From Roseibaca calidilacus (GTDB taxonomy: Bacteria; Pseudomonadota; Alphaproteobacteria; Rhodobacterales; Rhodobacteraceae): a DNA stretch of 64,000 bases. The DNA lies in assembly GCF_001517585.1 (NCBI RefSeq), contig NZ_FBYC01000004.1:2003501-2067500 (forward strand). The letters are read 5' to 3'. The notes beneath the pieces are model-generated. The model saw nothing but the letters and a program-made list of their open reading frames with translations, ran no database searches and was not told the DNA's origin. Position 1 is the first letter of the stretch. The number at the start of each line of letters is the position of its first letter. The position numbers were made by a program, and so were the translations under genes. Shown one piece after another: positions 1,873-29,091 of this stretch.

Positions 1873-3042
1873 ATGGCGAATGCGCAGATCGTGGGCTGGT
1901 CCCACACCCTTTTCGGCAAATCTGAAGCCGAGAGCACCGAAGCCTTGATAGCGCAGGCCCTTGCCCCGGCGTTGGAACATGCGGGCATCGGGGCCGAAGA
2001 TGTCGACGGTATTTTCGTAGGCGTCTACAATAACGGCTTTTCCAAGCAAGATTTTCAGGGCGCATTGGTAGCCATGGCGGATGACCGTTTCGCCCACACC
2101 CCCGCCACCCGCTATGAAAACGCCTGCGCCACCGGGTCGGCTGCCCTACATGGCGCGATGGATTTCATCGAATCCGGGCGCGGGCGCATTGCGCTGGTGG
2201 TGGGCGCGGAAAAGATGACCGCCACCCCGATTGCTGAAGTGGGTGACATTCTGCTGGGTGCCAGCTACCGGGCCGAGGAAGCCGAGGTCGAGGGCGGCTT
2301 CGCGGGCCTGTTCGGCCAGATCGCCGCCAGCTATTTCCAGCGATACGGTGACAAGTCGGAAGAACTGGCCATGATCGCCGCCAAGAACCACGCCAATGGC
2401 ATGAAAAACCCTTTGGCGCATATGCGCAAACCGTTTGATGTTGCGTTTTGCAACACGGTCTCTGACAAGAACCCGCGCGTGGCCGGCCCCTTGCGGCGCA
2501 CCGATTGCTCGCTGGTCAGCGATGGCGCGGCGGTGCTGGTGCTGGCGGATGCGGACACCGCCGCAACCCTCAACCGCGCAATCGCGTTTCGCGCGCGGGC
2601 ACATGCCAATGACATCATGGCGCTATCGCGCCGCGACGTGCTGGAATTCAGGGGCGCGCGGCTGGCATGGGCCAAGGCGCTGGCCGAGGCGGCTGTCACG
2701 CTAGATGACCTGTCGTTGGTGGAAACGCATGACTGTTTCACCATTGCCGAGTTGCTGGAATACGAGGCGATGGGGCTGGCCGAACCCGGCCAAGGGGGCC
2801 GCGTCATCCGCGAGGGCATAACCGCCAAGGACGGGCGCTTGCCGGTGAACCCCTCGGGCGGGCTGAAATCCAAGGGCCACCCGATTGGGGCCACCGGCGT
2901 GTCGATGCATGTCATGGCTGCGCAACACCTGACAAATGACGCGGGCGAGATGCAAATCCCCGGCGCGACCATGGCGGGCGTGTTCAATATGGGGGGTGCG
3001 GCCGTCACGAATTACGTCTCCATCATGGAGCGGGTGAAGTGA
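1873..3042 (+). CDS. Thiolase family acetyl-CoA acetyltransferase (SCP2-thiolase-like)
   Basis: Cytoplasmic thiolase of 389 residues. The acylated cysteine sits in ENACATGSAA, and the catalytic histidines in VETHDCFTIAE and in the GLKSKGHPIGATG signature near the C-terminus. The first-Cys context and length resemble the SCP2/lipid-transfer-like thiolases rather than PhaA. The start at 1873 is chosen because GGGAGGA lies 8-14 bases upstream; the longer frame from 1771 has no such site and runs through the terminator region. The ligase starts within a few bases of the stop, so the two are co-transcribed. It probably cleaves or forms a beta-ketoacyl-CoA made from the ligase product; the substrate is unknown. 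Confidence 0.88.
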   Translation: MANAQIVGWSHTLFGKSEAESTEALIAQALAPALEHAGIGAEDVDGIFVGVYNNGFSKQDFQGALVAMADDRFAHTPATRYENACATGSAALHGAMDFIESGRGRIALVVGAEKMTATPIAEVGDILLGASYRAEEAEVEGGFAGLFGQIAASYFQRYGDKSEELAMIAAKNHANGMKNPLAHMRKPFDVAFCNTVSDKNPRVAGPLRRTDCSLVSDGAAVLVLADADTAATLNRAIAFRARAHANDIMALSRRDVLEFRGARLAWAKALAEAAVTLDDLSLVETHDCFTIAELLEYEAMGLAEPGQGGRVIREGITAKDGRLPVNPSGGLKSKGHPIGATGVSMHVMAAQHLTNDAGEMQIPGATMAGVFNMGGAAVTNYVSIMERVK

Positions 3043-3044
3043 TC

Positions 3045-4613
3045 ATGGACCTGTCGCACGGCATGACGCCGGTTTCGACCCGGGTGATGAACCTGTCGCA
3101 CCTGCTGACCGAAAGCGCGCGGCGCGCGCCCGGTGACATCGGGCTGGTCTGGGGCGAGCAATCATGGACATGGGCCGAGTTGGACGCCCGCGCCACCGCC
3201 TTCGCCCGCGTGCTTGCGCAAGACTATGGCGTGGCCAAGGGCGACCGCGTGCTGGTGCAATCGGCCAATTGCAACCAGATGTTCGAAGCGGTCTTCGGCT
3301 GCTGGCGCGCAGGTGCCGTGTGGGTGCCTGCCAATTTTCGCCAATCGCCGGATGACGTGGCCTATCTGGCGCAATCCTCTGGCGCGAAGGTTCTGCTGTG
3401 CGGGGCGGAATTTGCCGACCACGCGCGCGCCTGTGCCCTGCCCACCATCGCCATTGGCGCGGCAGAGTTCGGCCCGGATTACGAGGCACTGATCGCGCCG
3501 CATCTGGGCCAGCCGCAGCCGGTGGCAGAGGTGTTCCGCGACGACCCGTGCTGGTTTTTCTTCACATCGGGCACCACGGGTCGGCCAAAGGCGGCGGTGC
3601 TGACGCATGGGCAGATGGCCTTTGTCATCACCAACCACCTGTGCGACCTGATGCCCGCGACCGGGCCAGAGGATGCCTCGCTTGTGGTGGCGCCCTTGTC
3701 GCATGGCGCGGGCGTGCATCAACTGAGCCAAGTAGCGCATGGGGTGAAAACCATCCTGCCCAAGGGCGCGAAGTTTGACCCGGACGAACTTTGGGCGCTG
3801 GTGGCAAAATGGCGGGTGACCAACATGTTCACCGTCCCGACCATCGTGAAACTGCTGGTCGAACACCCGGCGGTGGACGCGCATGACCATACCTCTTTGC
3901 GCTATGTCATCTATGCAGGCGCGCCCATGTATCGCGCCGACCAGATCCGCGCGCTGGACAAGTTGGGGCCGGTGCTGGTGCAGTATTTCGGGCTGGGCGA
4001 GGTGACGGGCAACATCACCGTGCTGCCGCCCGCGCATCACCACAGGGACGACGCGGCCATGCGCATCGGCACCTGCGGCTTTGCCCGCACAGGGATGCAG
4101 GTGCAGATCCAAGATGCCGAGGGGCGCGAGGTGGCGGCGGGAGAGACGGGCGAGATTGCTGTCATTGGCCCCGCCGTGTTTGCAGGCTATTTCAACAATC
4201 CCGACGCCAATGCCAAGTCCTTTCGCAATGGCTGGTTCCTGACTGGTGATCTGGGGCATATGGATGCCGAGGGCTTCGTCTACCTGACAGGCCGCGCTTC
4301 GGACATGTATATTTCGGGCGGGTCGAACATCTACCCACGCGAGATTGAGGAAAAGCTGCTGATGCACCCCGCCATTTCCGAGGTCGCAGTGCTGGGCGTG
4401 CCCGACCCGGTTTGGGGCGAGGTGGGGATGGCGGTGTGCGTGTGCCATGGCGATCCGCCCGCCGACCTGCTGGATTGGCTGTCGGGCAAGATCGCGCGCT
4501 ACAAACTGCCGCGTCATGTCGTGTTCTGGGACGCATTGCCGAAATCCGCCTATGGCAAGATCACAAAACAGACGATCCGCGCGGAGTTAGACGCACGCGG
4601 GCAATTGCCATGA
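3045..4613 (+). CDS. AMP-dependent acyl-CoA synthetase/ligase
   Basis: Activates a carboxylic acid to its CoA thioester through an acyl-AMP. The adenylation-domain signature is FTSGTTGRPKAAVLTH (about residue 170), with YFGLGEVTGN and the TGDLGHMDAEGFVYLTGR hinge, and a C-terminal lysine in SAYGKITKQ. At 522 residues it has the normal class size. Start choice: an ATG at 3045 or a GTG at 3039 that overlaps the thiolase stop; both give the same protein within two residues. The stop overlaps the start of the DUF296 gene (ATGA). Substrate cannot be read from sequence; benzoate/medium-chain/fatty-acid ligases are all possible. Confidence 0.88.
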   Translation: MDLSHGMTPVSTRVMNLSHLLTESARRAPGDIGLVWGEQSWTWAELDARATAFARVLAQDYGVAKGDRVLVQSANCNQMFEAVFGCWRAGAVWVPANFRQSPDDVAYLAQSSGAKVLLCGAEFADHARACALPTIAIGAAEFGPDYEALIAPHLGQPQPVAEVFRDDPCWFFFTSGTTGRPKAAVLTHGQMAFVITNHLCDLMPATGPEDASLVVAPLSHGAGVHQLSQVAHGVKTILPKGAKFDPDELWALVAKWRVTNMFTVPTIVKLLVEHPAVDAHDHTSLRYVIYAGAPMYRADQIRALDKLGPVLVQYFGLGEVTGNITVLPPAHHHRDDAAMRIGTCGFARTGMQVQIQDAEGREVAAGETGEIAVIGPAVFAGYFNNPDANAKSFRNGWFLTGDLGHMDAEGFVYLTGRASDMYISGGSNIYPREIEEKLLMHPAISEVAVLGVPDPVWGEVGMAVCVCHGDPPADLLDWLSGKIARYKLPRHVVFWDALPKSAYGKITKQTIRAELDARGQLP

Positions 4614-5422
4614 TCCGCCGCGTTGTCCATCCCGGCCCGGCGGTGGAGCCGCGCGTGACCGCGCTGCCGGTGCAGGCGCATCCGGTAAAGGTGGTGCTTC
4701 GCGGCGGTCTGCCCTTTGGGCAGGCCGTAGCAGAGGCTTTGGAAACGTTCGACGGCGGTTTTCTGGAGCTGCGCGACGTGGCGATGGACCCGCTGGCCTA
4801 TGTCATCCCCGGCCCGGCGCAGAACGGCCACGCCGCGTGGTATAGCGAAACGCACCAGATGGGCGCGGGCGCGCGGATCGTGCAAGGCTGCGTGCACTTA
4901 GGCTGGCGCGAGGGCGCGCGGTTCACCCATACGCATGGTATCTGGGCAGATGATACAGGCGCGCGGCATATGGGGCATATCCTGCCCGAGCAAGCGGTGA
5001 TCGCGCGCGATTGCACCGTGGCGGGTTGGGGGCTGACGGAGGGCTGTCTGGTGGCGCGGCCCGACCCGGAAACCGCCTTTACCCTGTTCCAGCCAGAGGC
5101 GCGCGATGCGCAGGACGGTGGCACGCCTGCGCATCTGGTTATGCTTCGGCCCAATCAGGACATTGGCACAGCGCTGAGCGGGTTGGGGCTGACAGGCCGC
5201 TTGCTGGGCTTGGGCAGCCTGATCGGCACACAGATGGAAGGCGGCGCGGCGCTGGACAGCTACGCGACAGAGATTTTGCTGACAGACGGCCATATCGGGC
5301 CGGAGGGCGCGGTTCTGGATGCCGCCAGCATCGGGCTGGATGGCCGGATGATCGAAGGGCGATTAGCGGCGGGAGTGAATGCGGTTCTGGTCACGGCAGA
5401 GCTTTTGGTTCTGACCAAATAG
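4610..5422 (+). CDS. DUF296/PPC-domain protein, tandem
   Basis: A 270-residue protein whose start overlaps the ligase stop as ATGA, indicating translational coupling. The middle shows the PPC (DUF296) hallmarks: a FTHTHGIWAD segment followed by GHILPEQ, the His cluster that binds metal in bacterial members. A second similar half follows (VVLRGGL near the start, GLGSLIGTQMEGGAALDSY near residue 200), so it appears to be two fused PPC-like domains. Bacterial PPC proteins form trimers with a metal site but have no assigned reaction. Its place as third gene after a thiolase and an acyl-CoA ligase suggests a role with an acyl-CoA or its acid; this is inference only. Confidence 0.75.
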   Translation: MIRRVVHPGPAVEPRVTALPVQAHPVKVVLRGGLPFGQAVAEALETFDGGFLELRDVAMDPLAYVIPGPAQNGHAAWYSETHQMGAGARIVQGCVHLGWREGARFTHTHGIWADDTGARHMGHILPEQAVIARDCTVAGWGLTEGCLVARPDPETAFTLFQPEARDAQDGGTPAHLVMLRPNQDIGTALSGLGLTGRLLGLGSLIGTQMEGGAALDSYATEILLTDGHIGPEGAVLDAASIGLDGRMIEGRLAAGVNAVLVTAELLVLTK

Positions 5423-5519: not shown

Positions 5520-6740
5520 TTAGGGTTTGCCTTGTTTGACCACACCTGCGTCGAAGAGCTGTGCGATTTCCGTGTCGGGCAGACCGATCACATCGCCCAA
5601 GATCGCTTCGGTATGTTCGCCAAGGATGGGCGCGCGGCGCGGGGTTTCGCGCGGGTCATGGCTAAAGGACATGGGCGAGCCGGGTACGCGGTAACGGCCG
5701 ATGCCGGGCTGGTCGAGCTGCGCGAACATGGGGTTGTCGAGCGACATATCCTCGTCCTCGGCCACAGCCTGTTTGAAGTCGCGGAATTGCGCCCATGTCA
5801 CGCCGCCATCGTCAAAGGCCTTGGCGAAATCCTCGACCCGGCGCGCGGCGAACCATGGGCGCAGCACCTCTGTGATGGCGTGACGGTGCTGCCAGCGCGC
5901 GCCCTCGCCTGCCAGCGAGGTGCCGAGTTGCGTTTCCAGTGCCTTGATGGCGTCGGTGGTGCCTGTGACCTTCAGCAGGTTGCGCCATTGCCGGTCGGTC
6001 AGGCCAATGACCATGACGCGCTTGCCATCGGCGCAAAGGAAATCCTGCCCATATGCGCCATACAGCGCATTGCCGGATTTGGGGCGCGATATGCCGTTCA
6101 CCTCAACCTCTCCGATCACGCCCAGATGGCCGAGCATTGCGGCGGCGACATCCTTGAGCGCCAGATCGACCGCAGAGCCGTGGCCATGGCGCAAGCGCTT
6201 GCGCTCTGCCGCCAAGAGCGCCGAGACGACCATGTTGCCCGCGATGCAATCCCAGGCGGGCAGCGCGTGCGCGACGGGTTCAGTGGAGCCCTCGGGACCG
6301 GTTGCCATGGGAAAGCCCAAGGCCGGGTTCACGGTATAATCCACCGCCGGGCGGCCTGCGCGATCGCCCGTCAGCGTGACCATGCACAGATCGGGGCGGC
6401 GGGCCGACAGGGTTTCGTAATCCATCCAGCCGCGCACGCGCAGATTGGTGATGAACAGGCCCGCATCTTCGCCCGGTGCGCAGATCAGTTCCGAGATGAT
6501 CTCGCGCCCGCGCGGGTGTTTCATGTCGATGGCAATCGACCGTTTGCCCTTGTTCATGCCCGCCCAGAACATGCTTGCGCCCGACGGGGCGACAGGCCAG
6601 CGCCCGGCATCCAAGCCGCCTTCAACCCGGTCGAAGCGGATGACATCGGCCCCCATCTGCGCCAGCGTCATGCCAGCAAGCGGCACGGCGACAAACGCGG
6701 ACCCTTCGACCACGCGCATACCTTTCAGGATGCCGCTCAT
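5520..6740 (-). CDS. mct: Mesaconyl-CoA C1-C4 CoA transferase (CaiB/BaiF class III)
   Basis: Intramolecular transferase that moves CoA from the C1 to the C4 carboxyl of mesaconate. It is 406 residues long with the class III CoA-transferase fold. The N-terminus (GMRVVEGSAFVAVPLAGMTL, DVIRFD, NKGKRSIAIDMKHPRG) closely follows the Chloroflexus Mct sequence as I recall it, including the PAWD motif (D164 here) carrying the catalytic Asp of that enzyme and the LGEHTEAIL end. The ATG overlaps the upstream meh stop (ATGA). It is the last gene of the six-gene operon. A generic formyl-CoA-transferase-like enzyme is the alternative, but the neighbouring mesaconyl-C4-CoA hydratase makes Mct much more likely. 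Confidence 0.82.
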   Translation of the reverse strand: MSGILKGMRVVEGSAFVAVPLAGMTLAQMGADVIRFDRVEGGLDAGRWPVAPSGASMFWAGMNKGKRSIAIDMKHPRGREIISELICAPGEDAGLFITNLRVRGWMDYETLSARRPDLCMVTLTGDRAGRPAVDYTVNPALGFPMATGPEGSTEPVAHALPAWDCIAGNMVVSALLAAERKRLRHGHGSAVDLALKDVAAAMLGHLGVIGEVEVNGISRPKSGNALYGAYGQDFLCADGKRVMVIGLTDRQWRNLLKVTGTTDAIKALETQLGTSLAGEGARWQHRHAITEVLRPWFAARRVEDFAKAFDDGGVTWAQFRDFKQAVAEDEDMSLDNPMFAQLDQPGIGRYRVPGSPMSFSHDPRETPRRAPILGEHTEAILGDVIGLPDTEIAQLFDAGVVKQGKP

Positions 6741-7618
6741 GCAGCCCACTCCATCCGGGCCTGCATACATTGATGGTTCGAAATAGCGGCAACGCTGCAC
6801 AGGTCCACGGCGGGCGCATCGGGGTCCATCCGGCCCACGGCGGCCATGTCTTCGGTGTGGAACATCGGGTGCACTCCTTTGAAGCGGAAGCGTTTTGGCA
6901 CCTGCCCGGTATGGCGGCAGGCTGCTTCCATCAACAGGCAGGCCTGCATCGGCCCGTGTACGATCAGGGCGGGGTATTTTTCAACCTCGCGCGCATAGGG
7001 CATGTCGTAATGAATGCGATGCGCATTGAAGGTGACGGCGGAAAAACGGAACAGCCGCGCTTCGTTCATCGGCACGACCTCGCGGAAATCGGGCGCGTCG
7101 GGCGCAGGAATGGCGCGGGGCGGGCGGAAGCTGTCGGGCATGTCCAGATAGACGATGTCCTGTTCTTCGCGGATGGCCCCGTTCTTGCCGTGCAAATCAT
7201 GGCCCACGCGGACGAAATACATAGACCCGGTGCTGCCCTGCTTTTCCGTGACTGACAGAATTTCAGAGCGGCGGTGCAAAACCTCTCCGACGTCCAGCAT
7301 ACCCGTCCATTCCAGCTTGCCCCCCGCCCACATGCGGCGCGGGTAGGGCAAGGGCGGCAGGAAGCGGCCCAGCGCGGGGTGGCCGTCTGCTCCCAATTCG
7401 GACAATGGTACGAATTCGGGAAACGCGATCCAGTGCCACAAGGGCGGCAGCGGCGCGCCGACCGCCAAGTCATGTGCCGGGGCCGCGGCGTGCGACAGGG
7501 TCGCCGCCATCATGCCCGCCAAGTTGGGCGTCAGCGCGCCAGCGTGTTCTTCCACGCGGCCGACCCATGCTTGCGGATCGGCCACGGTTGCGTCGTCATA
7601 CCCTTCGGGGTGCATCAT
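6737..7618 (-). CDS. meh: Mesaconyl-C4-CoA hydratase (MaoC/FAS1-type double hot dog)
   Basis: Predicted to hydrate mesaconyl-C4-CoA to (S)-citramalyl-CoA. The 293-residue protein has the layout of the HTD2/FAS1-like dehydratase group: an N-terminal hot-dog half (LPYPRRMWAGG, GSTGSMYFVRV, EEQDIVY) and a C-terminal half with the active-site loop FRFSAVTFNAHRIHYD followed by YALIVHGPM-like YPALIVHGPMQ. This architecture is shared by mesaconyl-C4-CoA hydratase of the 3-hydroxypropionate bicycle and by itaconyl-CoA hydratases. The start overlaps the mtkB stop by four bases; a second ATG lies at 7615. Linkage to mct and malyl-CoA lyase supports Meh over itaconyl-CoA hydratase. Confidence 0.8.
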   Translation of the reverse strand: MMHPEGYDDATVADPQAWVGRVEEHAGALTPNLAGMMAATLSHAAAPAHDLAVGAPLPPLWHWIAFPEFVPLSELGADGHPALGRFLPPLPYPRRMWAGGKLEWTGMLDVGEVLHRRSEILSVTEKQGSTGSMYFVRVGHDLHGKNGAIREEQDIVYLDMPDSFRPPRAIPAPDAPDFREVVPMNEARLFRFSAVTFNAHRIHYDMPYAREVEKYPALIVHGPMQACLLMEAACRHTGQVPKRFRFKGVHPMFHTEDMAAVGRMDPDAPAVDLCSVAAISNHQCMQARMEWAA

Positions 7619-8511
7619 GCAGCAGCCTTTTTGCCAAGAATCTCTGCCACCGTCGCCCCCATGGAGGACGGGTTCGGCGCGACCTTGATGCCTGCTTCCT
7701 GAAGGATCACAACCTTTTCCTGCGCGCTTTCGCCAAAGGCAGAGATGATCGCGCCAGCATGGCCCATCTTCCGGCCCTTGGGGGCGGAAAGCCCTGCAAT
7801 ATAGGCCGCGACCGGTTTGGTCATGTGGTCGCGGATGTATTCGGCGGCTTCGGCTTCCTGTGGGCCACCGATTTCGCCGATCATCATCACGGCATCGGTG
7901 TCGGGATCATTCTCGAACAGTTCAAGGATGTCGCGGAAGCTGGAACCGTTGATCGGATCGCCCCCAATGCCGACAGACGTGGACACGCCAATGCCCAGTT
8001 CCTTCATCTGGCTGGCGGCCTCATAGCCCAGCGTGCCAGAACGCCCGACAATGCCCACACGCCCCGGCATGTAGATATGCGGCGGCATGATGCCCATAAA
8101 GCCAATGCCGGGGCTGATGACGCCTGCGCAATTCGGCCCGATCAGGCGCATCTTGCGGGTTTCCTTGTAGCGGCGCAGGAAGCGTTTGACCTTCATCATG
8201 TCTTGCGCAGGAATGCCGTCTGCCACGCTGACGGCCACGCGGATGCCTGCATCGGCCGCTTCCATCATCGCATCGGCGGCCACGGGCGGCGGCACGAACA
8301 TCAAGGACGCATCGGCGCCGGTGGCCTCAACAGCTTCGCGCACAGTGTTGAACACGGGCTTGCCCAGCACCGTGGTGCCGCCGCGACCGGGGGTCACGCC
8401 GCCCACGACATTGGTGCCGGTTTCGATCATTTCCTGCGCGTGGAACTGGCCAATACGGCCCGAAATGCCCTGCACGATGATCTTGGTTTCTGGAGTGATC
8501 AGGATCGCCAT
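7615..8511 (-). CDS. mtkB: Malate-CoA ligase (malate thiokinase) alpha subunit
   Basis: Nucleotide-binding and phosphohistidine subunit of the ATP-dependent ligase making L-malyl-CoA from malate. It has a CoA-binding Rossmann N-terminus (IIVQGISGRIGQFHAQ, GTNVVGGVTPGRGG), the GPNCAGVISPG motif and the phosphorylated His in KGRKMGHAGAII, 298 residues in all. The beta subunit lies immediately upstream (15-base gap). Succinyl-CoA synthetase alpha is a paralogue, but the neighbouring malyl-CoA lyase and the close resemblance to Methylobacterium MtkB (for example IPAQDMM, SVGIGGDPINGSSF) favour malate as substrate. Housekeeping sucCD would normally sit in the TCA operon instead. Confidence 0.87.
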   Translation of the reverse strand: MAILITPETKIIVQGISGRIGQFHAQEMIETGTNVVGGVTPGRGGTTVLGKPVFNTVREAVEATGADASLMFVPPPVAADAMMEAADAGIRVAVSVADGIPAQDMMKVKRFLRRYKETRKMRLIGPNCAGVISPGIGFMGIMPPHIYMPGRVGIVGRSGTLGYEAASQMKELGIGVSTSVGIGGDPINGSSFRDILELFENDPDTDAVMMIGEIGGPQEAEAAEYIRDHMTKPVAAYIAGLSAPKGRKMGHAGAIISAFGESAQEKVVILQEAGIKVAPNPSSMGATVAEILGKKAAA

Positions 8512-8526
8512 AGGAATGGTCCTTTC

Positions 8527-9699
8527 TTATGCAGCGGCGGCGTTGGGGCGCGCTTTGACGGCGGCCTCGGCGGCTTCGGCAAGGGTGCCTGCGGTGATGA
8601 TGGGCACATCGGCGCTTTCAAGGATGCGGCGGCCTTCATCCACATTGGTGCCCGCCAAACGGACAACCACCGGAATGGTCATGCCCACTTCCTTATAGGC
8701 CTGCACCACGCCCGCCGCGATCCAGTCGCAACGGTTGATGCCCGCAAAGATGTTCACAAGGATCACGCTGACATTCGGGTCGGTCAGAACCGTGCGGAAC
8801 GCGGTCACAACGCGCTCGGCACTGGCACCGCCGCCGATGTCAAGGAAGTTGGCAGGTTCGGCGCCGGCCAGTTTGATCATGTCCATCGTGGCCATGGCCA
8901 AACCGGCCCCGTTGATGATGCAGCCAATATCGCCGTCAAGGCCGATATAGGACAGGCCGGACCCTGCCGCCATCGCCTCACGCGGGTCTTCTTGTGACAG
9001 GTCGCGCAGCGCGGCTACTTCGGGGCGGCGGAACATGGCGTTGGTGTCAAAGCTCATCTTGGCATCCAGCGCCACCAGATCGCCCGCGCCGGTAATGGCC
9101 AGCGGGTTGATCTCTACCATGGTGGCGTCCAGATCGCGGTAGGCGCGGTAGCAGGCGCGCAGGGTGTTGACCATCTGACCAATCTGGTTGCCGGTCAGGC
9201 CAAGGCGAAAGGCCAGTTCGCGCGCCTCGAAATCACACAGGCCGGTGGCCGGGTCGATAATCATGCGCACAAGGCTGTCAGGGTCTTTTTCCGCCAGATC
9301 CTCAATCTCCATCCCGCCTGCGCCGGATGCCACGATCATGATGCGCTCCGATTTCCGGTCCAGCACGAAACCCAGATAGATTTCCTGCGCAATATCGGTC
9401 GCGGCTTCGACCCACAGGCGATACACGCCTTTGCCGCCGGGGCCGCTTTGCTTTGTCACAAGCTGACGGCCCAGAATATTGGCGGCAAACTCGCGCACCT
9501 CTTCATCGGTGCGGCAGAATTTCACGCCGCCCGCTTCGCCGCGCCCACCCGAATGGATTTGCGCCTTGATGACAACCGGCAGGCCAATTTCGCGCGCCTG
9601 ATAGGCCGCTTGCTCGGGCGAATAGGCCAAGCCGCCACGCGGCACCGGGACACCGAATTTTGCCAGAATGTCCTTGGCCTGATGTTCATGAATGTCCAT
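8527..9699 (-). CDS. mtkA: Malate-CoA ligase (malate thiokinase) beta subunit
   Basis: ATP-grasp subunit pairing with the next gene to form malyl-CoA. It is 390 residues and begins [17 protein letters not shown]. The ATP-grasp fold shows [14 protein letters not shown] (phosphate-binding loop), [11 protein letters not shown] and the carboxylate/CoA-ligase segment [20 protein letters not shown], then NFLDIGGGA and [14 protein letters not shown]. Residues around [16 protein letters not shown] and [11 protein letters not shown] agree with Methylobacterium MtkA as recalled. It is preceded by AGGAG-like bases 8 positions before the ATG and follows mcl after 22 bases. Confidence 0.88.
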
Positions 9700-9721
9700 G
9701 GTTTCTCCTCCCTTGGGGTTC

Positions 9722-10663
9722 TCAGCCCTTGGCTGCGATGGCTTCGGCCACGTCGATCAGATTGCGCGCCATCTTCTCGGATGCCGCGTCGATCATCTTG
9801 CCATCAAGCGAGGCGGCACCCTTGCCTTGCGCTTCGGCCTTTTTCAGTTCTTCGATGATGCGATGCGCTTTCGTCACTTCCGCTTCCGGCGGGCTGAACA
9901 CTTCGTTGGCCAATGCGATCTGGCTGGGGTGAATGGCCCATTTGCCTTCGCAACCCAGCGCCGCGGCACGGCGCGCGCCCGCCTTGTAGCCTTCGGGATC
10001 GGAAAAATCGCCAAACGGCCCATCAACCGCGCGCAGCCCGTAGGCGCGGCAGGCGACGACCATGCGGGTGATGGAAGCGTGCCACTGGTCGCCCGGATAA
10101 TCGGGGTTCAGGCCGCCGATATTGGTGGTGCGGGCGCGCATGGATGCCGCGTAGTCGGCCACCCCGAAATGCAGGCATTCCAAACGCCCGCCAAACTGCG
10201 CAATGGCTTCGACATTGGCCATACCCAGCGCGGTCTCGATCAGCGCTTCCAGCCCCACGCGGGTTTTCAGCCCGCAGCCCTGTTCAATCTGGTTGACCAT
10301 GGCTTCGACCATATACAGGTCGGCGGGCACGCCCACCTTCGGCACCAGCAGCGTGTGCACACGGTCGCCCGCCTGTTCCATGATATCGACTACGTCGCGA
10401 TACATGTAATGCGTGTCCAACCCGTTGATGCGCACCGACACGGTCTTGCCCTTGGCTTCCCAGTCGATCTCGTTCAGCAGCTTGACCGCATTCTTGCGGG
10501 CCTGATCCTTCTCTGGCGGGGCGACGGCATCTTCAAGGTCCAGAAACACCACGTCGGCGTCGCTGTCGGCGGCTTTCACCACCATGTCGATATTGGATGC
10601 AGGCACCGCCAATTCGGAACGGTGCAGCCGCTGCCGCCGTAGCGGGTAGAGTGTGTGTGACAT
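9722..10663 (-). CDS. mcl: L-malyl-CoA / beta-methylmalyl-CoA lyase
   Basis: CitE-like TIM-barrel lyase, 313 residues, cleaving malyl-CoA to acetyl-CoA and glyoxylate. In related enzymes it also condenses glyoxylate with propionyl-CoA to beta-methylmalyl-CoA. Motifs: [14 protein letters not shown] (substrate/metal Asp-Glu), [15 protein letters not shown], the metal-binding Glu in [18 protein letters not shown], and [10 protein letters not shown]...[17 protein letters not shown]. It is closer in these strings to serine-cycle MclA than to Rhodobacter Mcl1. Whether it also cleaves citramalyl-CoA, as the Chloroflexus enzyme does, cannot be read from sequence. It stands between the aminotransferase and mtkA in the operon. 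Confidence 0.88.
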
Positions 10664-10686
10664 GTTCTGTCCCTTCCAGTGTTATG

Positions 10687-11904
10687 TTATTCAGCCGCGA
10701 TCGGGGTGCTTTCCACCACGCGCGGGCGGTCGCGGCGCTTGCCATCCGACCAATAGCGCTGCGCGGCAGCCAGCCCCGCGCCCAGTTCGATATCGACACC
10801 CGCGCGCCACAAGGCCATTTCGGCCATTGACAGCGCACCGGCGAGCGAGCCTTCATTGACCCAGCCCAGATGCCCGATGCGGAACACCCGATCCGCCAAG
10901 CGGCCCAAGCCGCCGCCGAAGGAAGCGCCCAATTCGTCATGCGCAATGGCAATCACCTCGCGCGCGTCGATATGCATGGGCGTGCGAATGGCGGTCACGG
11001 TGTTTGAATAAAGCGAGGGGTGCTCGGCGACCATATCCAGCCCCCAAGCCTGCACGGCGGCGCGCACGCCGGTGGCGATGCGGGCATGGCGTGCGATGAC
11101 CGTGTCGATGCCTTCATCCAGCAATAGCTCGACGGACGCGCGCAGCCCATGCAGCAGCGGAATGGGTGGCGTGTAGGGGAAAACCCCGTCACTTTGCAGA
11201 TTCGCCATATCGGCAAATTCGAAATAGGCGCGGCGCAGGGTGGCACTTTTCGCCGCCTGCATGGCTTTGTCGCTGACGCCCAGAATGCCCAGACCGGCAG
11301 GGCACATCAGCCCTTTCTGGCTGCCGGTGACGGCCAAGTCCACGCCCCAATCGGCCATGCGAAACTCGATCGACCCGATGGACGACACGCCATCCACGAA
11401 CAAAAGCGCGTCGTGAAAATTCATGTCCAGCGCCCGGCGCACCGCGGCCACATCTGAGGTAACGCCGGTCGCGGTTTCGTTATGCGTGACGAACACGGCC
11501 TTGATGCGATCCTCTTTGTCGGCACCCAGACGGCGTTCGATTTCCTTGACCGGACAGCCCGCGCCCCAAGCGACATCGATCAATTCCACATCCAGCCCCA
11601 GCCGTTCGGCCATCTGCGCCCAAAGCACGGAAAAATGCCCATGGCGCGCCATCAGCACGCGGTCGCCGGGGTTGAGCGTGTTGGTGATCGCAGCCTCCCA
11701 AGCCGCAGAGCCAGAGCCGGGGAACAGAAAGACATTCCCCCCCTCCATCCGCATGATCTGGCGCAGGCCCGCAGTGATCTCGGTGGCAAGCGCGCCGAAG
11801 CCGGGGGCGCGGTGGTCCTCTGCTGCGACATTCATGGCGCGACGCACCGCTTCGGGGATCGGCGTCGGGCCGGGGGTGAAAAGATGGTGCTGTCCGATGG
11901 TCAT
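10687..11904 (-). CDS. sgaA: Class V aminotransferase, serine-glyoxylate type
   Basis: PLP-dependent aminotransferase of 405 residues converting glyoxylate to glycine with an amino donor. Fold-type I class V features: NHLFTPGPT-like N-terminus (HLFTPGPTPIP), FLFPGSGSAAWE cofactor loop, NETATGVTSDVAAVR, LLFVDGVSSIGS with the PLP Asp, and the Schiff-base Lys in VTGSQKGLM. It is the first gene of the operon and faces the ScfR-type regulator across 140 bases. It could be serine-glyoxylate aminotransferase (serine cycle) or the aspartate-glyoxylate enzyme BhcA of the beta-hydroxyaspartate cycle. No bhcBCD genes are nearby and mtkAB-mcl are, so the serine-cycle reading is preferred. Confidence 0.82.
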   Translation of the reverse strand: MTIGQHHLFTPGPTPIPEAVRRAMNVAAEDHRAPGFGALATEITAGLRQIMRMEGGNVFLFPGSGSAAWEAAITNTLNPGDRVLMARHGHFSVLWAQMAERLGLDVELIDVAWGAGCPVKEIERRLGADKEDRIKAVFVTHNETATGVTSDVAAVRRALDMNFHDALLFVDGVSSIGSIEFRMADWGVDLAVTGSQKGLMCPAGLGILGVSDKAMQAAKSATLRRAYFEFADMANLQSDGVFPYTPPIPLLHGLRASVELLLDEGIDTVIARHARIATGVRAAVQAWGLDMVAEHPSLYSNTVTAIRTPMHIDAREVIAIAHDELGASFGGGLGRLADRVFRIGHLGWVNEGSLAGALSMAEMALWRAGVDIELGAGLAAAQRYWSDGKRRDRPRVVESTPIAAE

Positions 11905-11979: not shown

Positions 11980-12031
11980 TGTAAATGCGAAGATTTACAT
12001 GTTATCATTTCCGTAAATTTGTGAATTTTAC
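11980..12031. promoter_or_regulatory. Tandem dyad operators between sgaA and the ScfR-type regulator
   Basis: TGTAAAT (11980-11986) and ATTTACA (11993-11999) form a perfect 7-bp dyad with a 6-base spacer. A related, less symmetric dyad GTAAA (12013-12017) and TTTAC (12027-12031) follows. Both lie in the AT-rich gap between two divergent starts, the second ending 14 bases before the regulator ATG. They are plausible binding sites for the adjacent regulator, controlling both itself and the operon. Confidence 0.6.
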
Positions 12032-12044
12032 AGGATACAATCGC

Positions 12045-13451
12045 ATGCTGAAAACCTTCATCGGCCCGCGTTTGCGCCGCTTGCGCCAAGAGCATAAGCA
12101 AACCCAAAGCCAGATGGCGCGGGCTTTGGGGATTTCGACATCTTACGTCAACCTGTTGGAAAAGAACGAAAGATCAGTCTCTGTCCCGGTGCTTTTGAAG
12201 ATATTCGAGACCTATGGCGTCGAATGGCGCGACATTGCCGAAGATGACGACACCGCCACGCTGGCCGATCTGCGCGCAGCACTTCTGGACAACCTGTTCG
12301 ATGCCGACCGCCCCGATTTGCCGCAACTGCGCGCGGCGCAAATTCACAGCCCCGACCTTGTGGCGTCGTTCCTGACGCTGCACCGCGCGTATCAGGCTGC
12401 GACAGATCAACTCATGTCGCTGGCCACCAGCGGCACCGATGCAAGTGACGTGCTGCCAAGTTCGCCCGAAGCGGCGGTGCATAATTTCTTCCGGCGCAAT
12501 CACAACCATTTCGCGGTGCTCGAATCGGTCGCGGCTGAATTCTGGGGCGGCAAAACGGTCGCCCCGGACGATACCTATGCCGCGCTGAAAGCCCTACTGC
12601 GCGACCGGCTGGGCCTGCATGTGCGACTGGTCACAACCGCAGAGATGCCCGAAACCCTGCGCGAATATGACGAAGCCGCGCGCGAAGTGCGCCTGTCCGA
12701 AGCGTTGGACCATCCCAACCGGGTGTTCCAGCTTGTGCATGTGGCCGGGCTTATCGAACATGCGGAGCTGCTGGATACGCTGTTGTCGCAATCGCGGATA
12801 ACCGACCCGCACGGGCTGGCGCGCTGCCGGGTGGAACTGACCAATTATTTCGCCGCCGCCGTGCTGATGCCCTATGCGCCCTTCTTGTCCGAAGCCTTGG
12901 CGTCACGCTACGATTTCACGCATCTGGCCACGCGTTTTGGTGTCAGCTTTGAACAGGCTTGCCACCGCGCCACCACCTTGCAGCGCGCGGGCGCGCAGGG
13001 GGTGCCGTTTTTCTTCGTGCGGATTGACAAGGCGGGCAACGTGACCAAGCGGTTCAACGCGACCGATTTCCATCTGGCCGAATATGGCGGCGCCTGTCCC
13101 CGGCTGGATGTGCATACCTCGTTTCGCACGCCGGGGCAGATCGTGCCGCAATTCGTGGAAATGCCGGATCGCAGCCAGTTTTTCGTGTTCTCGCGCACCG
13201 TGGACCGGCCCAGCCTGTCGGGGCATGCGACTGATGTGCGGCTGGCCGTGGCCATGGGCTGCGATGTCGAACATGCCGCGCAGATCGGCTATGCCGAAAG
13301 CCTGCGCGCCAGCAAAACGCGGCCCGTGCCCATCGGCATAAACTGCCGCACCTGCCCGCGCAATGATTGCGACCAGAGGGCGCATAATGCCGTTGTCTTG
13401 TCAAAACCGGTTGATGCAAGGCGGCGTGGGGCGACGCGCTATGCAAGTTAG
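12045..13451 (+). CDS. ScfR/PccR-type XRE regulator with IrrE-like and DUF2083 domains
   Basis: A 468-residue transcription factor. Residues 8-63 form an XRE helix-turn-helix (RLRRLRQEHKQTQSQMARAL, ISTSYVNLLEKNERSVS). A long middle part resembles the ImmA/IrrE-like region (ELTNYFAAAVLMPYAPFLSEA). The C-terminal DUF2083 portion carries four cysteines near the end (CRTCPRNDC). Regulators of this architecture (RamB, MccR, PccR of Rhodobacter sphaeroides) control acetate and propionyl-CoA metabolism. The ATG at 12045 is chosen over the upstream in-frame start because the longer form runs through the operator dyads. Its divergent placement suggests it governs the glyoxylate/malyl-CoA operon, likely sensing an acyl-CoA. 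Confidence 0.85.
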   Translation: MLKTFIGPRLRRLRQEHKQTQSQMARALGISTSYVNLLEKNERSVSVPVLLKIFETYGVEWRDIAEDDDTATLADLRAALLDNLFDADRPDLPQLRAAQIHSPDLVASFLTLHRAYQAATDQLMSLATSGTDASDVLPSSPEAAVHNFFRRNHNHFAVLESVAAEFWGGKTVAPDDTYAALKALLRDRLGLHVRLVTTAEMPETLREYDEAAREVRLSEALDHPNRVFQLVHVAGLIEHAELLDTLLSQSRITDPHGLARCRVELTNYFAAAVLMPYAPFLSEALASRYDFTHLATRFGVSFEQACHRATTLQRAGAQGVPFFFVRIDKAGNVTKRFNATDFHLAEYGGACPRLDVHTSFRTPGQIVPQFVEMPDRSQFFVFSRTVDRPSLSGHATDVRLAVAMGCDVEHAAQIGYAESLRASKTRPVPIGINCRTCPRNDCDQRAHNAVVLSKPVDARRRGATRYAS

Positions 13452-24711: not shown

Positions 24712-25749
24712 CTATTGAACGGGGGCTTCAAGCGGTCCGAAGGATGTAGACCAGTCCGCAAGGAAGCGAACCTGCTTCATCCGGTCAAGATAGGTGAGAA
24801 GGCCGGGGCCAAGGCGGATTGGAAACAATGGCTTGCCGCGCAAGAGGTCCACAACCCGATCGGGCGCGACTCCGTCCTCTAGCGCAGCAATCGGCACCAG
24901 CCCGCCAGAGCGCGCGATCTCGGCCTGCCCTTCGTCCGACAGCAAATAGGTGATGAAGCGCTGTCCCAGCTCTGTATTGTTCGCCCGGCGGGGAACAAAG
25001 GCGGTTCGGCTGAACGCCAAGGTGTAGTCGTCCAGCAGGTACAGCCCTATCCTTGGGTCCCGCGCTGCCACGTCAAGCGCATATGATCCGATGACATTAT
25101 AGCCATAAACCAGGCGCCCTTCGCCCAAGGCCTTTAGAACAAGGCTGCTACAGCAGTATGTCTGGGACTGCGCGCGGCCGAGCGTTTCGACCAGCCGTGG
25201 CAACTGATAGCCCCGGCGCGCATCCTGCGTCGCAAAAAGATAGCCCACACCCGAGAGCGCGACATCATATGTGCCGACCCGCCGGTTGTAGAATGCGGGA
25301 TCGTCACGAACCTGACTGGCCAGTTCGGACCGGGTGCGGGGTAGGCTGCGTCCTTCGAACGCGGCCCGGTTGTAGGCCATGACCACGGGTTCAAAGGTGA
25401 ACCCCCACAGTTCATCGCGCCACACGGCCCAATCCGGCAGGGCATCGGCCCCGCGCGGGCGAAACGCCAGTGCGAGCCCGCGATTAACAAGATCGACCTG
25501 AAGGTCCATGGCTGACGAGATCACGACATCCATCCCCGCACCGCCATCGGCCAGAACCGCCGCGTGCAGTTCTGCGGTGTTGTATTCGATGTAATCCACC
25601 TGCACGCCGGGATTGGCCGCCTCGAACCCGGAAATAAGACCAGAGATCGCCGACGTGTCGGTGGCGCTATGGATGCTCAATGGCTGGGCCTCGGCCCTCA
25701 TGTTTAGGCTTCCAGCCAGCGCGAGCGCGACAAGGCAAGCACGGATCAT
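24712..25749 (-). CDS. Periplasmic solute-binding protein (family 1) linked to a two-component system
   Basis: 345 residues with an N-terminal signal peptide (ACLVALALAGSLNMRAEAQ). The body resembles iron/polyamine-type binding proteins (IHSATDTSAISGLISGFEAANPGV-like opening in parts, FEPVVMAYNRAAF, LLSDEGQAEI, GGLVPI). There is no adjacent ABC permease or ATPase. Its ATG overlaps the histidine kinase stop (ATGA), so it is co-translated with a sensor. In such three-gene units the binding protein is thought to act as the periplasmic ligand receptor for the kinase. Ligand unknown; the divergent Tct transporter suggests a carboxylate. Confidence 0.82.
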   Translation of the reverse strand: MIRACLVALALAGSLNMRAEAQPLSIHSATDTSAISGLISGFEAANPGVQVDYIEYNTAELHAAVLADGGAGMDVVISSAMDLQVDLVNRGLALAFRPRGADALPDWAVWRDELWGFTFEPVVMAYNRAAFEGRSLPRTRSELASQVRDDPAFYNRRVGTYDVALSGVGYLFATQDARRGYQLPRLVETLGRAQSQTYCCSSLVLKALGEGRLVYGYNVIGSYALDVAARDPRIGLYLLDDYTLAFSRTAFVPRRANNTELGQRFITYLLSDEGQAEIARSGGLVPIAALEDGVAPDRVVDLLRGKPLFPIRLGPGLLTYLDRMKQVRFLADWSTSFGPLEAPVQ

Positions 25750-27188
25750 GTTGCGGCCCCCAAGATCGGTCCGGCGGGCAGCAAAAGCCGCGCCGAAAGC
25801 CCCCCCTCTGGGGACGCATCAAGTTCAAGCCGGCCGCAATGCGCGGACACAGCGGCCTCGACAATCGCCAGCCCTAGGCCGGACCCGCGACGCGGCCCAA
25901 GGCTGCAAAAACGCTGGCGGGCCCGGGCCCGGTCTGCCGCTGCAATGCCCGGACCGTTGTCTTCGACGCGCAGGTCCAGCGCCGTCTGCCCATTCAATTC
26001 GCCCTGCGAAAAGGCAATGCGGACCAATGGTGCCGCCCCGGCGTGGCGCAGCGCGTTGTCGATCAAATTGCGCATCGCTTCGCGTAGGCTGACCGGATCT
26101 CCGGCAACCATAAGGGTTTCGGCCCCCTTGGCCAGTTGCACTTCAAACTCCGGTTCCCCCATGTCATCCCGGCTCCGGCTGGCCTCTTCGATCATGCCTC
26201 GCGCAATGCCGACCATATCGACAATCTCGCGCGGGGCGGTGTCGGCGCGATGGATCACCATGGCGTGCGTCAGAAGCTGGTTGGTCAGCCGGATCGTGCG
26301 GCTGGCCTGCTCAGCGGCCTTCGCAACCCGAACGCGCTGGCCCGCTGGATCGACGGTTTCGGACGCCAATTCCAGTTGACCGTGCAGGGCTGACAATGAC
26401 GTGCGGATCTGGTGCGATACATCTGCGATAAAGGTTTCGGCATTGTCCTTGCTGGCAACAAGACGCGACATGAACCCGTTGATCGCAGAAATAAGGCCCG
26501 CAATCTCGCGCGGGGGTAAGGCGCGCAGGGGGGCAAGGTTGGCGGGGTCGCGGCCCTGTATATCAGCCTCGATCCCGGCGAGCGGACGCATCGCCAGAAA
26601 AATGGCGAACTGCACAAAGACAAGACCGATCAGCGCCAGCACCGACAGCACGGCTATGCCCTTGATGAACAGGTCGCGCTGCATCGCATCGCGGGCACCG
26701 CGGGTCTGGCCGACTTGGACGGCAACCTCCTCAAGGCCGGCCATGCCCGTCAACACCTGCTGGCGGCGAACGAAGCGCACGGCTTCGCCAGTATGTGGTG
26801 CATCAAAGAATTGTCTTTCGGGCACGCGCGGGGTAGCGCGTGGCGTCTGGCCAGGTGGGGCAGGCAGGTTGGCGTCGCCGGTCAGCACAGTGCCATCGGC
26901 GGTTGATACCTGATAGAAAACGCGGTCATCCTCGACAAGCGCGAGGATTTCCAGCGCTGAATTTGGGATGTCGATCTGTATGCCGGACGGCGTGGCGGTG
27001 ACACTGTCCAGAATGGCTATGGCGGCCCCGTCCAACAGCAGGTCGAAAGAGGTGTCGGCGGCATTGCGCGCGTAGCTCCACAGTCCGAACGCCAGCGCCG
27101 TCATAATGACCGAGAAGCCCGCAAGCATAGCCGCCATCAGGCGTCGACGCAGGGAATACGGTCTGTGGGGTGTCCTAGTCGCGAACAT
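25746..27188 (-). CDS. Sensor histidine kinase (TctE/QseC-like)
   Basis: 480 residues. TM1 about 20-40 (LMAAMLAGFSVIMTALAFGL), periplasmic sensor of about 140 residues, TM2 about 180-200 (GIAVLSVLALIGLVFVQFAI), HAMP, HisKA with phospho-His in FIADVSHQIRTSLSAL, and HATPase with N-box LIDNALRHAG and G-boxes VEDNGPGIA, GSGLGLAIV. The sensor region resembles the TctE N-terminal type. The start overlaps the response-regulator stop by 14 bases. It is expected to phosphorylate that regulator and control the divergent tctCBA genes. Confidence 0.9.
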   Translation of the reverse strand: MFATRTPHRPYSLRRRLMAAMLAGFSVIMTALAFGLWSYARNAADTSFDLLLDGAAIAILDSVTATPSGIQIDIPNSALEILALVEDDRVFYQVSTADGTVLTGDANLPAPPGQTPRATPRVPERQFFDAPHTGEAVRFVRRQQVLTGMAGLEEVAVQVGQTRGARDAMQRDLFIKGIAVLSVLALIGLVFVQFAIFLAMRPLAGIEADIQGRDPANLAPLRALPPREIAGLISAINGFMSRLVASKDNAETFIADVSHQIRTSLSALHGQLELASETVDPAGQRVRVAKAAEQASRTIRLTNQLLTHAMVIHRADTAPREIVDMVGIARGMIEEASRSRDDMGEPEFEVQLAKGAETLMVAGDPVSLREAMRNLIDNALRHAGAAPLVRIAFSQGELNGQTALDLRVEDNGPGIAAADRARARQRFCSLGPRRGSGLGLAIVEAAVSAHCGRLELDASPEGGLSARLLLPAGPILGAAT

Positions 27189-27843
27189 CTGCGATATACC
27201 CCAGACCGCGAATGGTGCGCAGGCGCAAGGGTGATCCCTCTAGCTTGCGCCGCAACCTGACGACGGCCTGCTCAACCGCGTTCAGCGTCGGCGTTTCCTC
27301 GAAGGTATAGATCCGGTCGGCAACCTCTTCTTTCGACAGGACACGACCGAGGCTGCTCAGGAATGCCTCAAGCAAATGCACATCGCGCGACCTGAGTTCA
27401 AGGTCCACGCCGTCCAGCGTCGCACGCTTGGCTGCGCGGTCATAGACCAGCCCGCCGACGACGAACTGGTTCGAGGCTTGGCCAGCGCGGCGGCGCACAA
27501 GCGCACGGGCACGCGCGGCCAGTTCGCGAAAGTCGATCGGTTTGATGATGTAATCGTCCGCGCCAAGATCCAGTCCTGAAATGCGGTCGTCAATTTCTGA
27601 TCGTGCCGTCAAGATCAGCACCGGGGTGCGGTCGCCGCGGGCACGAAGGCGGCGCAGCACTTCGGTCCCCGGCAAACCGGGTAGGTTGATGTCAAGGATC
27701 AGCAAGTCGAAGTGGCTGTGTATAAGCAAGGCGTCCGCCTGCGCCCCATCTGTTTCGCGGTCAATGGCGTGGCCCTCGGCAAGGAACCGGTCCATCACCA
27801 TTTCCGCCAATTCGTCATTGTCTTCGATCAGAAGCATACGCAT
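27175..27843 (-). CDS. OmpR-type response regulator (TctD-like)
   Basis: 222 residues. The receiver domain has the acidic pair in LLIEDNDELAEMV, the phospho-Asp in LLILDINLPGLPGTEVL and the Lys in YIIKPIDFRELAAR. The C-terminal winged helix is of OmpR type (LELRSRDVHLLEAFLSSLGRVLSKE, LRTIRGLGYIADV). Start at 27843 is preferred to the ATG seven codons upstream because it directly precedes the receiver. First gene of the RR-HK-binding protein operon, divergent from tctC with a 207-base shared promoter region. Confidence 0.9.
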   Translation of the reverse strand: MRMLLIEDNDELAEMVMDRFLAEGHAIDRETDGAQADALLIHSHFDLLILDINLPGLPGTEVLRRLRARGDRTPVLILTARSEIDDRISGLDLGADDYIIKPIDFRELAARARALVRRRAGQASNQFVVGGLVYDRAAKRATLDGVDLELRSRDVHLLEAFLSSLGRVLSKEEVADRIYTFEETPTLNAVEQAVVRLRRKLEGSPLRLRTIRGLGYIADVRD

Positions 27844-28050
27844 CCGCCAATCATGCCATGCCACGCGAAAATATCCATAAGGAAACGGATGCCGCGCACC
27901 CCGGTCAGCGTCACGTCAGTTTCGCGTCAAGGCTAGGTCAGGCCGCCCGGATAAGGTTTGAGTCGGGAGGATGGTAAACGGTGGCCGCGCAGAATGCGCG
28001 AACCGCAATCCGTGGATGCCTCCTGCACGATACAAATGGGAGGAGACCCA

Positions 28051-29019
28051 ATGAACATGACCCGTCTTTTTGCCGCGACCGTCGCCCTTGTCGGCGCGAC
28101 CGGCTTCGCCGCCATGGCCGACATCACGCGGCCCGAATGCATTGCGCCCGCCAATCCCGGCGGCGGTTTTGACCTGACCTGCCGCGTGGTGCAGATCGGG
28201 CTTGCAGACCAGATGCCGGAACCCGTGCAGGTTACCTTCATGCCCGGCGGCATCGGCGCCGTGGCGATCAACCTGTTCAACACCACCCGCACCGATGACA
28301 GCAATGCCATCGTCGCTTTCTCGTCGGGATCGCTTCTGAACATCGCGACCGGCAAGTTCGGCGAATGGACCGAAAATGACGTCCGTTGGCTGGCCTCGGC
28401 AGGGACCGATTACGGCGCGGTCGTGGTGCGTGAGGACAGCCCCTTCGAGACGCTGGACGACGTGATGGCCGCTGCCAAGGAAGACCTGAGCGGGATCGTG
28501 TTCGGCGCGGGCGGTTCGGTCGGCTCGCAGGACTGGATGAAAGCTGCGATCCTGCTGAAATCCGAAGGGCTGGATCCGAAGGCCATGCGCTATGTCGCCT
28601 TCGACGGGGGCGGCGCTTCCATTGCGGCGCTGCTGGGCGGGTCGATCGACGTTTATACCGGCGATGTCGCCGAACAGGCGGCCCATATCGGCGCGGGCAC
28701 GATGCGCGTTCTGGCGGTCATGGCACCCGAGCGTCTGGACGCGCCATATGACCAATTCCCGACCGCACGGGAGCTAGGCTACGACGCCGTATGGAGCATT
28801 GTGCGCGGCTTCTACATGGGCAAGGACGTGTCCGATGAGGATTACGACGCCTGGGTCGCGGCCTTCAACGCAGCCTATGAGACCGAGGGCTTTGCGCAGA
28901 ACCAAGCCGACAAAGGCTTGCTGCCCTACAATCTTGCCGGGCCCGAGTTCGCCGCCGAAATGAAGGCCGGCGTCGAGGACATGCGCACCATCGCGCGCGA
29001 AGCGGGCCTGCTCGAGTAA
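28051..29019 (+). CDS. tctC: TctC-type tripartite tricarboxylate transporter binding protein
   Basis: Periplasmic receptor of a TTT carboxylate importer, 322 residues. The signal peptide is LFAATVALVGATGFAAMA; the mature part opens ECIAPANPGGGFDLTCR, the conserved loop that binds a carboxylate in Bug/TctC proteins, and contains GIVFGAGGSVGSQDW. GGGAGGAG six bases before the ATG at 28051 fixes the start. Followed by tctB and tctA, so the whole transporter is present. Substrate may be citrate, another di- or tricarboxylate; it cannot be read directly. Confidence 0.93.
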   Translation: MNMTRLFAATVALVGATGFAAMADITRPECIAPANPGGGFDLTCRVVQIGLADQMPEPVQVTFMPGGIGAVAINLFNTTRTDDSNAIVAFSSGSLLNIATGKFGEWTENDVRWLASAGTDYGAVVVREDSPFETLDDVMAAAKEDLSGIVFGAGGSVGSQDWMKAAILLKSEGLDPKAMRYVAFDGGGASIAALLGGSIDVYTGDVAEQAAHIGAGTMRVLAVMAPERLDAPYDQFPTARELGYDAVWSIVRGFYMGKDVSDEDYDAWVAAFNAAYETEGFAQNQADKGLLPYNLAGPEFAAEMKAGVEDMRTIAREAGLLE

Positions 29020-29091
29020 GCACGACGACATGGTCATGACCGGGCGGCAGATTGCCGCCCGGTCAACGTCGCCACGCCCAAGGAGGTTATC

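Follow-up and report, generated by a model that had tools for sequence, protein, structure and literature searches.

Which pathway is served by an operon that joins genes of the serine cycle to genes of the 3-hydroxypropionate bicycle? The question is raised by a 64,000-nucleotide stretch of the Roseibaca calidilacus genome (contig NZ_FBYC01000004.1, positions 2,003,501 to 2,067,500; hereafter the window), in which positions 5520–11904 hold six minus-strand genes: a class-V aminotransferase gene followed by mcl, mtkA, mtkB, meh and mct. All six reading frames are open, gaps of 23, 22 and 15 bp separate the genes from the aminotransferase to mtkB, and 4-bp overlaps link mtkB to meh and meh to mct, which bears out the operon layout described in an initial annotation of this DNA. 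That annotation saw in the genes a hybrid of the two pathways, and the predicted enzyme functions agree with family matches and with matches in the Protein Data Bank (PDB). We consider it probable that the operon serves, under regulation, to drain a mesaconyl-C1-coenzyme A (CoA) hub to central C3 and C2 metabolites. This interpretation was built on the genes and their family matches, the active-site residues of Mct, the conservation of gene order, a conserved motif, and the presence in the same genome of Ccr, Mch, Mcl1, two mutases and a carboxylase cluster.

The six-gene arrangement is not due to chance, as it recurs at mct loci across Rhodobacterales. Gene content was determined with a codon-usage gene caller and tblastn in 390 Rhodobacterales genomes, drawn evenly from a larger group, with mct called from TIGR04253 matches at E <= 1e-100. 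An Mct-family gene was found in 54 of these genomes (56 loci). By tblastn, mct is accompanied by mtk genes at 23 of the 56 loci (hereafter type-A loci), 29 have the meh-mct pair but no neighbouring mtk, and four carry mct alone; the combination noticed at first in one operon is thus a recurrent one. All seven genes, including a divergent regulator described below, occur at 17 of the 56 loci. The type-A loci span 14 genera, and mct is present in four of five genomes of the window's own genus. A class-level sample of 337 Alphaproteobacteria, including metagenome-assembled genomes (MAGs), gave 44 carriers of an Mct-family gene at the same threshold (36 meet a 90%/5% quality bar); gene labels at these loci are weak, the caller having been trained on Rhodobacterales. 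A set of named loci (L107–L186), made up of the 80 top-ranking among at least 578 confirmed candidates, overlaps the genome samples, and its counts are not summed with theirs. Among these best 80, mtk genes occur in 23, with carriers including Roseibaca ekhonensis (Mct 91% identity), Maritalea mobilis, Roseibacterium records, Mameliella and Sagittula; the complete operon is present in Roseibaca ekhonensis (L107), Mameliella alba (L121) and Sagittula salina (L131). The meh-mct pair lies just upstream of nusG-rplK-rplA (names assigned by reading) at L066, L067, L071–L074, L087, L090–L092 and several named loci (Roseovarius, Sulfitobacter); at some loci of this type it follows a tuf gene, an unusual site for a metabolic pair.

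The association of the mtk block with meh-mct seems to have arisen repeatedly. In an Mct tree of 53 of the 56 order loci (the three weakest homologues omitted; L056 and L098 on very long branches), type-A status has to change three times. A type-A group of 18 rows (support 86/57) includes the window, and type-A loci L093, L094, L096 and L097 nest among loci with meh-mct only. At these four loci, mcl, mtk and the aminotransferase are about as close to those of the window as at other type-A loci; meh (48–50% identity) and mct (62–67%) have diverged as far as their counterparts in meh-mct-only loci, and the regulator (66–67%) is somewhat more distant. The nesting and the per-gene identities together suggest repeated joining of two modules. 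The regulator, meh and mct also occur without mtk or mcl at three MAG loci (L124, L136, L142), and mtkBA lies near meh-mct at one locus of Rhodovibrio (L127).

The mct gene (5520–6740, minus strand) starts at an ATG at 6740, the longer open reading frame (ORF) 5520–6800 being a mechanical call only. Its product best matches TIGR04253, the 2-methylfumaryl-CoA isomerase family (529 bits; 117 bits for the next family), and PDB entries 7xkg (512.6 bits) and 8apq (503.9 bits). In an alignment whose reference residues were taken from PMC9813914 and PMC9196870 (here and below, PMC-numbered sources are cited for the portions available), equivalents of Leu43, Arg47, Arg104, Tyr136 and Asp165 are present; Leu43, Arg47, Tyr136 and Asp165 are described as catalytic or entrance residues tied to intramolecular transfer (PMC9813914). 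The Asp165 equivalent is kept in all 173 aligned rows, which comprise 56 order loci, 79 of the 80 named loci (all except L164) and 38 class rows (40 of the 46 class places other than the window's own were taken, and L232 and L252 gave no called mct).

The meh gene (6737–7618, minus strand) encodes a mesaconyl-C4-CoA/itaconyl-CoA hydratase-like protein with PF13452 whose PDB matches are itaconyl-CoA hydratase entries (8huc, 193 bits; 8khg, 192 bits). This similarity, and a three-step logic shared with itaconate degradation (PMC12290011), would suit the catabolism of a C5 acid such as mesaconate, itaconate or citramalate, in which MtkAB would activate the acid and Mct, Meh and Mcl would cleave it to acetyl-CoA and pyruvate. 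We regard such a role as highly unlikely: with the acid loaded at C4 there would be no use for the intramolecular-enzyme residues that Mct carries, MtkA scores above the cut-off of the malate-CoA ligase model, and the conserved seven-gene block has no uptake gene.

The predicted malyl-CoA/beta-methylmalyl-CoA lyase gene mcl (9722–10663, minus strand) has its best PDB match in 5ugr, a malyl-CoA/beta-methylmalyl-CoA lyase that we take to be a Methylobacterium protein (390 bits, 63% identity), and is less close to 4l9y (294 bits, 50%). Equivalents of Arg76, Glu141 and Asp168 are retained, as are the Arg, Glu and Asp residues in all three lyases of the genome, and a shortened loop is shared without any difference by the 20 type-A loci in which mcl was called, window included. 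The predicted malate-CoA ligase beta subunit is encoded by mtkA (8527–9699; NF010647, 658.6 bits, cut-off 604), paired on the minus strand with mtkB (7615–8511) for a malate/succinate-CoA ligase alpha subunit (NF004230, succinate-CoA ligase alpha, 417.6 bits, cut-off 336). With Mcl nearest to 5ugr and MtkA nearest to the malate-CoA ligase model, one could see here a serine-cycle variant in which C1 assimilation is the task of sga, mcl and mtkAB, with meh-mct as passengers. However, phosphoenolpyruvate (PEP) carboxylase has no match in the genome and is present in just 2 of the 54 mct-carrying Rhodobacterales, which leaves the PEP-carboxylase version of the serine-cycle side of the initial annotation unsupported and the canonical cycle disfavoured; entry through PEP carboxykinase would be possible (PMC8262859). 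As meh-mct were seemingly joined to the mtk block more than once, and adjoin the regulator where that block is absent, we give the passenger explanation very little credence.

The first gene of the operon (10687–11904, minus strand) had been called sgaA-like. Its assignment to the class-V aminotransferases stands, but the choice of SgaA is not firm: the best NCBIfam model is BhcA (NF045640, 539 bits, under its cut-off of 650) and the best PDB match is 6pk1, a serine-glyoxylate aminotransferase (380 bits). We call the protein SgaA/BhcA-like and expect it to transaminate glyoxylate. In four type-A loci with an otherwise intact operon (L082:14544–15014, L084:5091–5579, L089:4808–5293 and L137), a short ORF stands in its place, 156–162 amino acids long as called in three of them and aligning to parts of the aminotransferase with large gaps. 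This replacement weakens the suggestion that the operon disposes of glyoxylate with the aminotransferase as overflow.

Enzymes that would supply the hub are encoded elsewhere in the genome. A mesaconyl-C1-CoA hydratase gene (mch), outside the window, lies at L045:7258–8301 (PF19315 MC_hydratase, 67.5 bits, cut-off 26.5), beside genes read as sdhCDAB and an Mcl2-like gene; the genome therefore does not lack the hydratase whose absence the initial annotation held would speak against its route. Crotonyl-CoA carboxylase/reductase (ccr) is present (620 bits, cut-off 378.55), as is Mcl1, a Rhodobacter-type malyl-CoA lyase 86% identical to the 4l9y protein. Two CoA mutases were found. One stands after carboxylase genes that are themselves preceded by an ScfR-type gene (422.6 bits with the RamB model, cut-off 700), a cluster read as pccR-pccB-pccA-mcm; the other (659 amino acids) lies apart from the carboxylase genes and may be the ethylmalonyl-CoA mutase. 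An acyl-CoA dehydrogenase of the window (57875–59575) was rejected as methylsuccinyl-CoA dehydrogenase, since it scores 104 bits with 6es9, which we take to be that enzyme, and 69 bits with 8ciw, against 475 bits with 8png.

With these parts, mesaconyl-C1-CoA would be reached by two inputs: from acetyl-CoA and CO2 via Ccr, ethylmalonyl-CoA mutase and methylsuccinyl-CoA dehydrogenase, and from propionyl-CoA and glyoxylate via Mcl and Mch. Mct would shift the CoA from C1 to C4, Meh would hydrate the resulting mesaconyl-C4-CoA to citramalyl-CoA, and the operon Mcl or the chromosomal Mcl1 would split this into acetyl-CoA and pyruvate. In vitro, Rhodobacter MCL can join acetyl-CoA and pyruvate to form citramalyl-CoA (PMC3832036), so either lyase may serve for the cleavage. 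MtkAB with Mcl would interconvert malate with acetyl-CoA and glyoxylate, in either direction, and the aminotransferase would join glyoxylate to glycine. The substrates and the direction of flux are predictions of this scheme, as are co-transcription of the genes, the methylsuccinyl-CoA dehydrogenase step, and the effector and DNA binding of the regulator.

That regulator, which the initial annotation did not mention, is encoded divergently next to the operon (12045–13451, plus strand). It belongs to the short-chain fatty acyl-CoA regulator (ScfR) family, with a helix-turn-helix domain, an IrrE-like domain and an ScfR C-terminal domain (PF01381, PF06114 and PF09856, the last at 195 bits), and scores 351 bits with the RamB model NF038139, under its cut-off of 700. 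Likewise absent from that annotation are two similar boxes that appear to precede the operon: box 1 (TGTAAATGCGAAGATTTACA, 11980–11999), with perfect 7-bp arms, and box 2 (CGTAAATTTGTGAATTTTACA, 12012–12032), with a GT.AA.tTGT.AA core conserved in alignment. A regulator match was obtained at 21 of the 23 type-A loci, and all 21 intergenic regions, window included, carry a common motif, GCTGTRAAtGCGaraWTTYACA or a variant. With a matrix derived from these same 21 sites, the sites themselves score 20.0 at the lowest and 35.2 at the median; the window motif reaches 35.2, with a second best of 9.5 within the 64 kb, and 12.0 is the highest value among the 33 order loci that lack mtk. At the three MAG loci with regulator, meh and mct, the motif is present in L124 and L142, and L136 holds a weak candidate only. 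RamB, an ScfR protein of Paracoccus, acts via two boxes, with the motif 82 bp before its operon, and appears to prefer beta-methylmalyl-CoA (PMC10370305). Its spacer is 18 bp; 12 bp separate the boxes of the window as drawn. We regard regulator and boxes as a candidate regulator-operator pair, in which the protein would sense an acyl-CoA of the mesaconyl-C1-CoA hub and act at the two boxes.

The initial annotation had proposed that glyoxylate and propionyl-CoA are co-assimilated. Of this, a connection with propionate is hinted at by the position of meh-mct in line with maeB-like and prpE-like genes in other genomes. In a co-location survey of 135 loci, the order maeB>meh>mct>prpE was found at nine loci of seven genomes (two pairs of loci share a record), with 77–134 bp between mct and prpE in eight of the nine; the malic-enzyme-like and propionate-CoA-ligase-like pair of L053 reaches 970 (cut-off 1178) and 725 bits (cut-off 955) with NCBIfam models. 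A citrate-lyase-like gene follows meh>mct at seven loci of six records and lies between the two in L098 (meh>lyase>mct); for those of L145 and L098 the best model is RipC/citramalyl-CoA lyase (Ccl), at 171 and 167 bits against a cut-off of 375. The proposal is nevertheless incomplete, because the genome encodes enzymes of the ethylmalonyl-CoA pathway and mesaconyl-C1-CoA need not derive from glyoxylate and propionyl-CoA.

Several findings weigh against a drain from this hub. The 529 bits of Mct lie below the curated TIGR04253 cut-off of 725, which is exceeded in none of the 390 order genomes and in one of the 337 class genomes, and Met, Lys, Leu and Gly stand at the positions of Ile74, Arg75, Phe101 and Arg314. 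The operon Mcl reaches 176.8 bits with the RipC/Ccl model (cut-off 375). Methylsuccinyl-CoA dehydrogenase was not located, although no proper genome-wide search was made, and none of the genes listed for the surroundings of ecm or pcc (L257, L258) was identifiable as this enzyme. The 20-kb stretches of this genome that surround ccr, mch, mcl1, ecm and pcc hold no motif copy above a score of 9.0, so no shared regulation is seen. By tblastn, one type-A locus has no meh (L076) and another no mcl (L081). Finally, of the 44 mct carriers in the class sample 14 have ccr, against 90 of the 293 non-carriers (Fisher p 0.86). As the presence of mct does not follow that of ccr in this sample, Mct is not generally tied to the ethylmalonyl-CoA pathway; an exit from that pathway is rejected as its general role, and many carriers must manage with another input, for example propionyl-CoA plus glyoxylate. 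Class matches can share as little as 44% identity with the Mct of the window, so some of them may have a different function.

An alternative is that the ethylmalonyl-CoA pathway has no part in the operon's function. The maeB-meh-mct-prpE clusters and the 30 class carriers (of 44) without a ccr match fit it, as does the Mch-like gene that immediately precedes mct in a member of a different alphaproteobacterial family (L221:9237–10280; PF19315, 28.1 bits, cut-off 26.5), and a partial 3-hydroxypropionate bicycle provides a published precedent (PMC6593406). Against this, the Ccr and mutase of the genome are expected to yield mesaconyl-C1-CoA, and keeping that supply out would need a separate control; moreover, at 29 of the 56 order loci meh and mct have no adjoining mtk. 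In Rhodobacterales, ccr is present in all 54 mct carriers, against an order baseline of 370 of 390 (p 0.09, at low power), and mch relatives in 53 of 54. We hold a complete separation from the ethylmalonyl-CoA pathway to be rather unlikely and, from the class-wide result and the order baseline together, take two inputs and one drain as the best reading for this genome.

A more specific proposal is advanced tentatively. These Rhodobacteraceae may naturally convert acetyl-CoA and CO2 to pyruvate: Ccr would lead to mesaconyl-C1-CoA, Mct and Meh would carry this on to citramalyl-CoA, and cleavage of the latter would release the pyruvate. Such a route would be the equivalent of pyruvate synthase in an oxygen-tolerant form, and it would be switched by an ScfR regulator of its own, responsive to a C5 or propionyl-CoA intermediate. 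If true, part of the family would have a second exit from the ethylmalonyl-CoA pathway, one that fixes CO2 and yields pyruvate and acetyl-CoA rather than glyoxylate and propionyl-CoA. The module would have no direct need of ATP (adenosine triphosphate), by the account of a design paper (PMC10521678), and would be a natural version of the designed pathway, with a candidate regulator-operator pair.

Other features of the window were noted. Convergent with the operon, plus-strand genes at 1873–5422 encode a thiolase (PRK07516), an acyl-CoA synthetase (PRK07470) and a protein without a Pfam or NCBIfam match; these neighbours recur at two same-genus loci of the order set (L057, L061). At 25746–31048, a sensor kinase and a regulator-like ORF adjoin a tripartite tricarboxylate transporter (TctA, 515.6 bits), and three minus-strand ORFs at 32853–36636 resemble, by reading, insertion-sequence transposases. 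A ribonucleotide reductase (37556–39754, minus strand) has a TSCPD domain, presumably as in B12-dependent class II enzymes. At 51167–53047 (plus strand), a homocysteine S-methyltransferase adjoins a separate B12-binding protein, a pair that we take to resemble a split methionine synthase.

Our search of the open-licence literature, subscription papers being outside its scope, found no description of this operon, and an exit of this kind does not appear in the available portion of a review on purple bacteria from 2021 (PMC8307300). Genes of the mct type have been called uncommon and assigned to Chloroflexi and a few proteobacterial clades, with Rhodobacterales unnamed in the text available (PMC6593406). 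A survey took TIGR04253 at E below 1e-99 as the key marker for the 3-hydroxypropionate bicycle and then checked for completeness (PMC9802188). Since E <= 1e-100 is reached by 54 of the 390 Rhodobacterales genomes and by 44 of the 337 from Alphaproteobacteria, a TIGR04253 match should not be read as autotrophy.

How does the operon compare with known systems? The second cycle of the 3-hydroxypropionate bicycle in Chloroflexus and Roseiflexus likewise uses Mct, Meh, Mch and malyl-CoA-type lyases, with the same predicted products, pyruvate and acetyl-CoA; the operon differs in occurring in ethylmalonyl-CoA-pathway bacteria, with MtkAB, an aminotransferase and an adjoining ScfR regulator. The partial bicycle of Kentron, Thiosymbion, Competibacter, Accumulibacter and Riegeria is also a heterotrophic use of the C5 reactions, deduced from genes, but in Kentron, unlike here, the ethylmalonyl-CoA pathway is not predicted (PMC6593406). 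The reductive citramalyl/ethylmalonyl-CoA pathway, a 2021 in silico design and an artificial module, combines the same ethylmalonyl-CoA branch to mesaconyl-C1-CoA with the bicycle part to pyruvate and acetyl-CoA, for a net conversion of acetyl-CoA and bicarbonate to pyruvate (listed value -39 +/- 9; PMC10521678); most of its parts are encoded here in a natural genome, methylsuccinyl-CoA dehydrogenase being the part not located. The malate branch of the serine cycle (mtkAB-mcl) has the same sequence type of MtkAB and Mcl, but in the present genome PEP carboxylase is unmatched and mtkAB-mcl is coupled to meh-mct. From itaconate degradation (Ict-Ich-Ccl) and the beta-hydroxyaspartate cycle the operon is set apart by a lyase under the RipC/Ccl cut-off (176.8 versus 375 bits) and an aminotransferase under that of BhcA (539 versus 650 bits). 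RamB, PccR and MccR (PMC10370305) share with the regulator its divergent position, the link to ethylmalonyl-CoA or propionyl-CoA metabolism and, judged by sequence, apparently the two similar boxes; what distinguishes the present case is that, among the stretches scanned, the motif is found at the operon only, and that a second ScfR-type gene stands beside the genome's own carboxylase and mutase genes.

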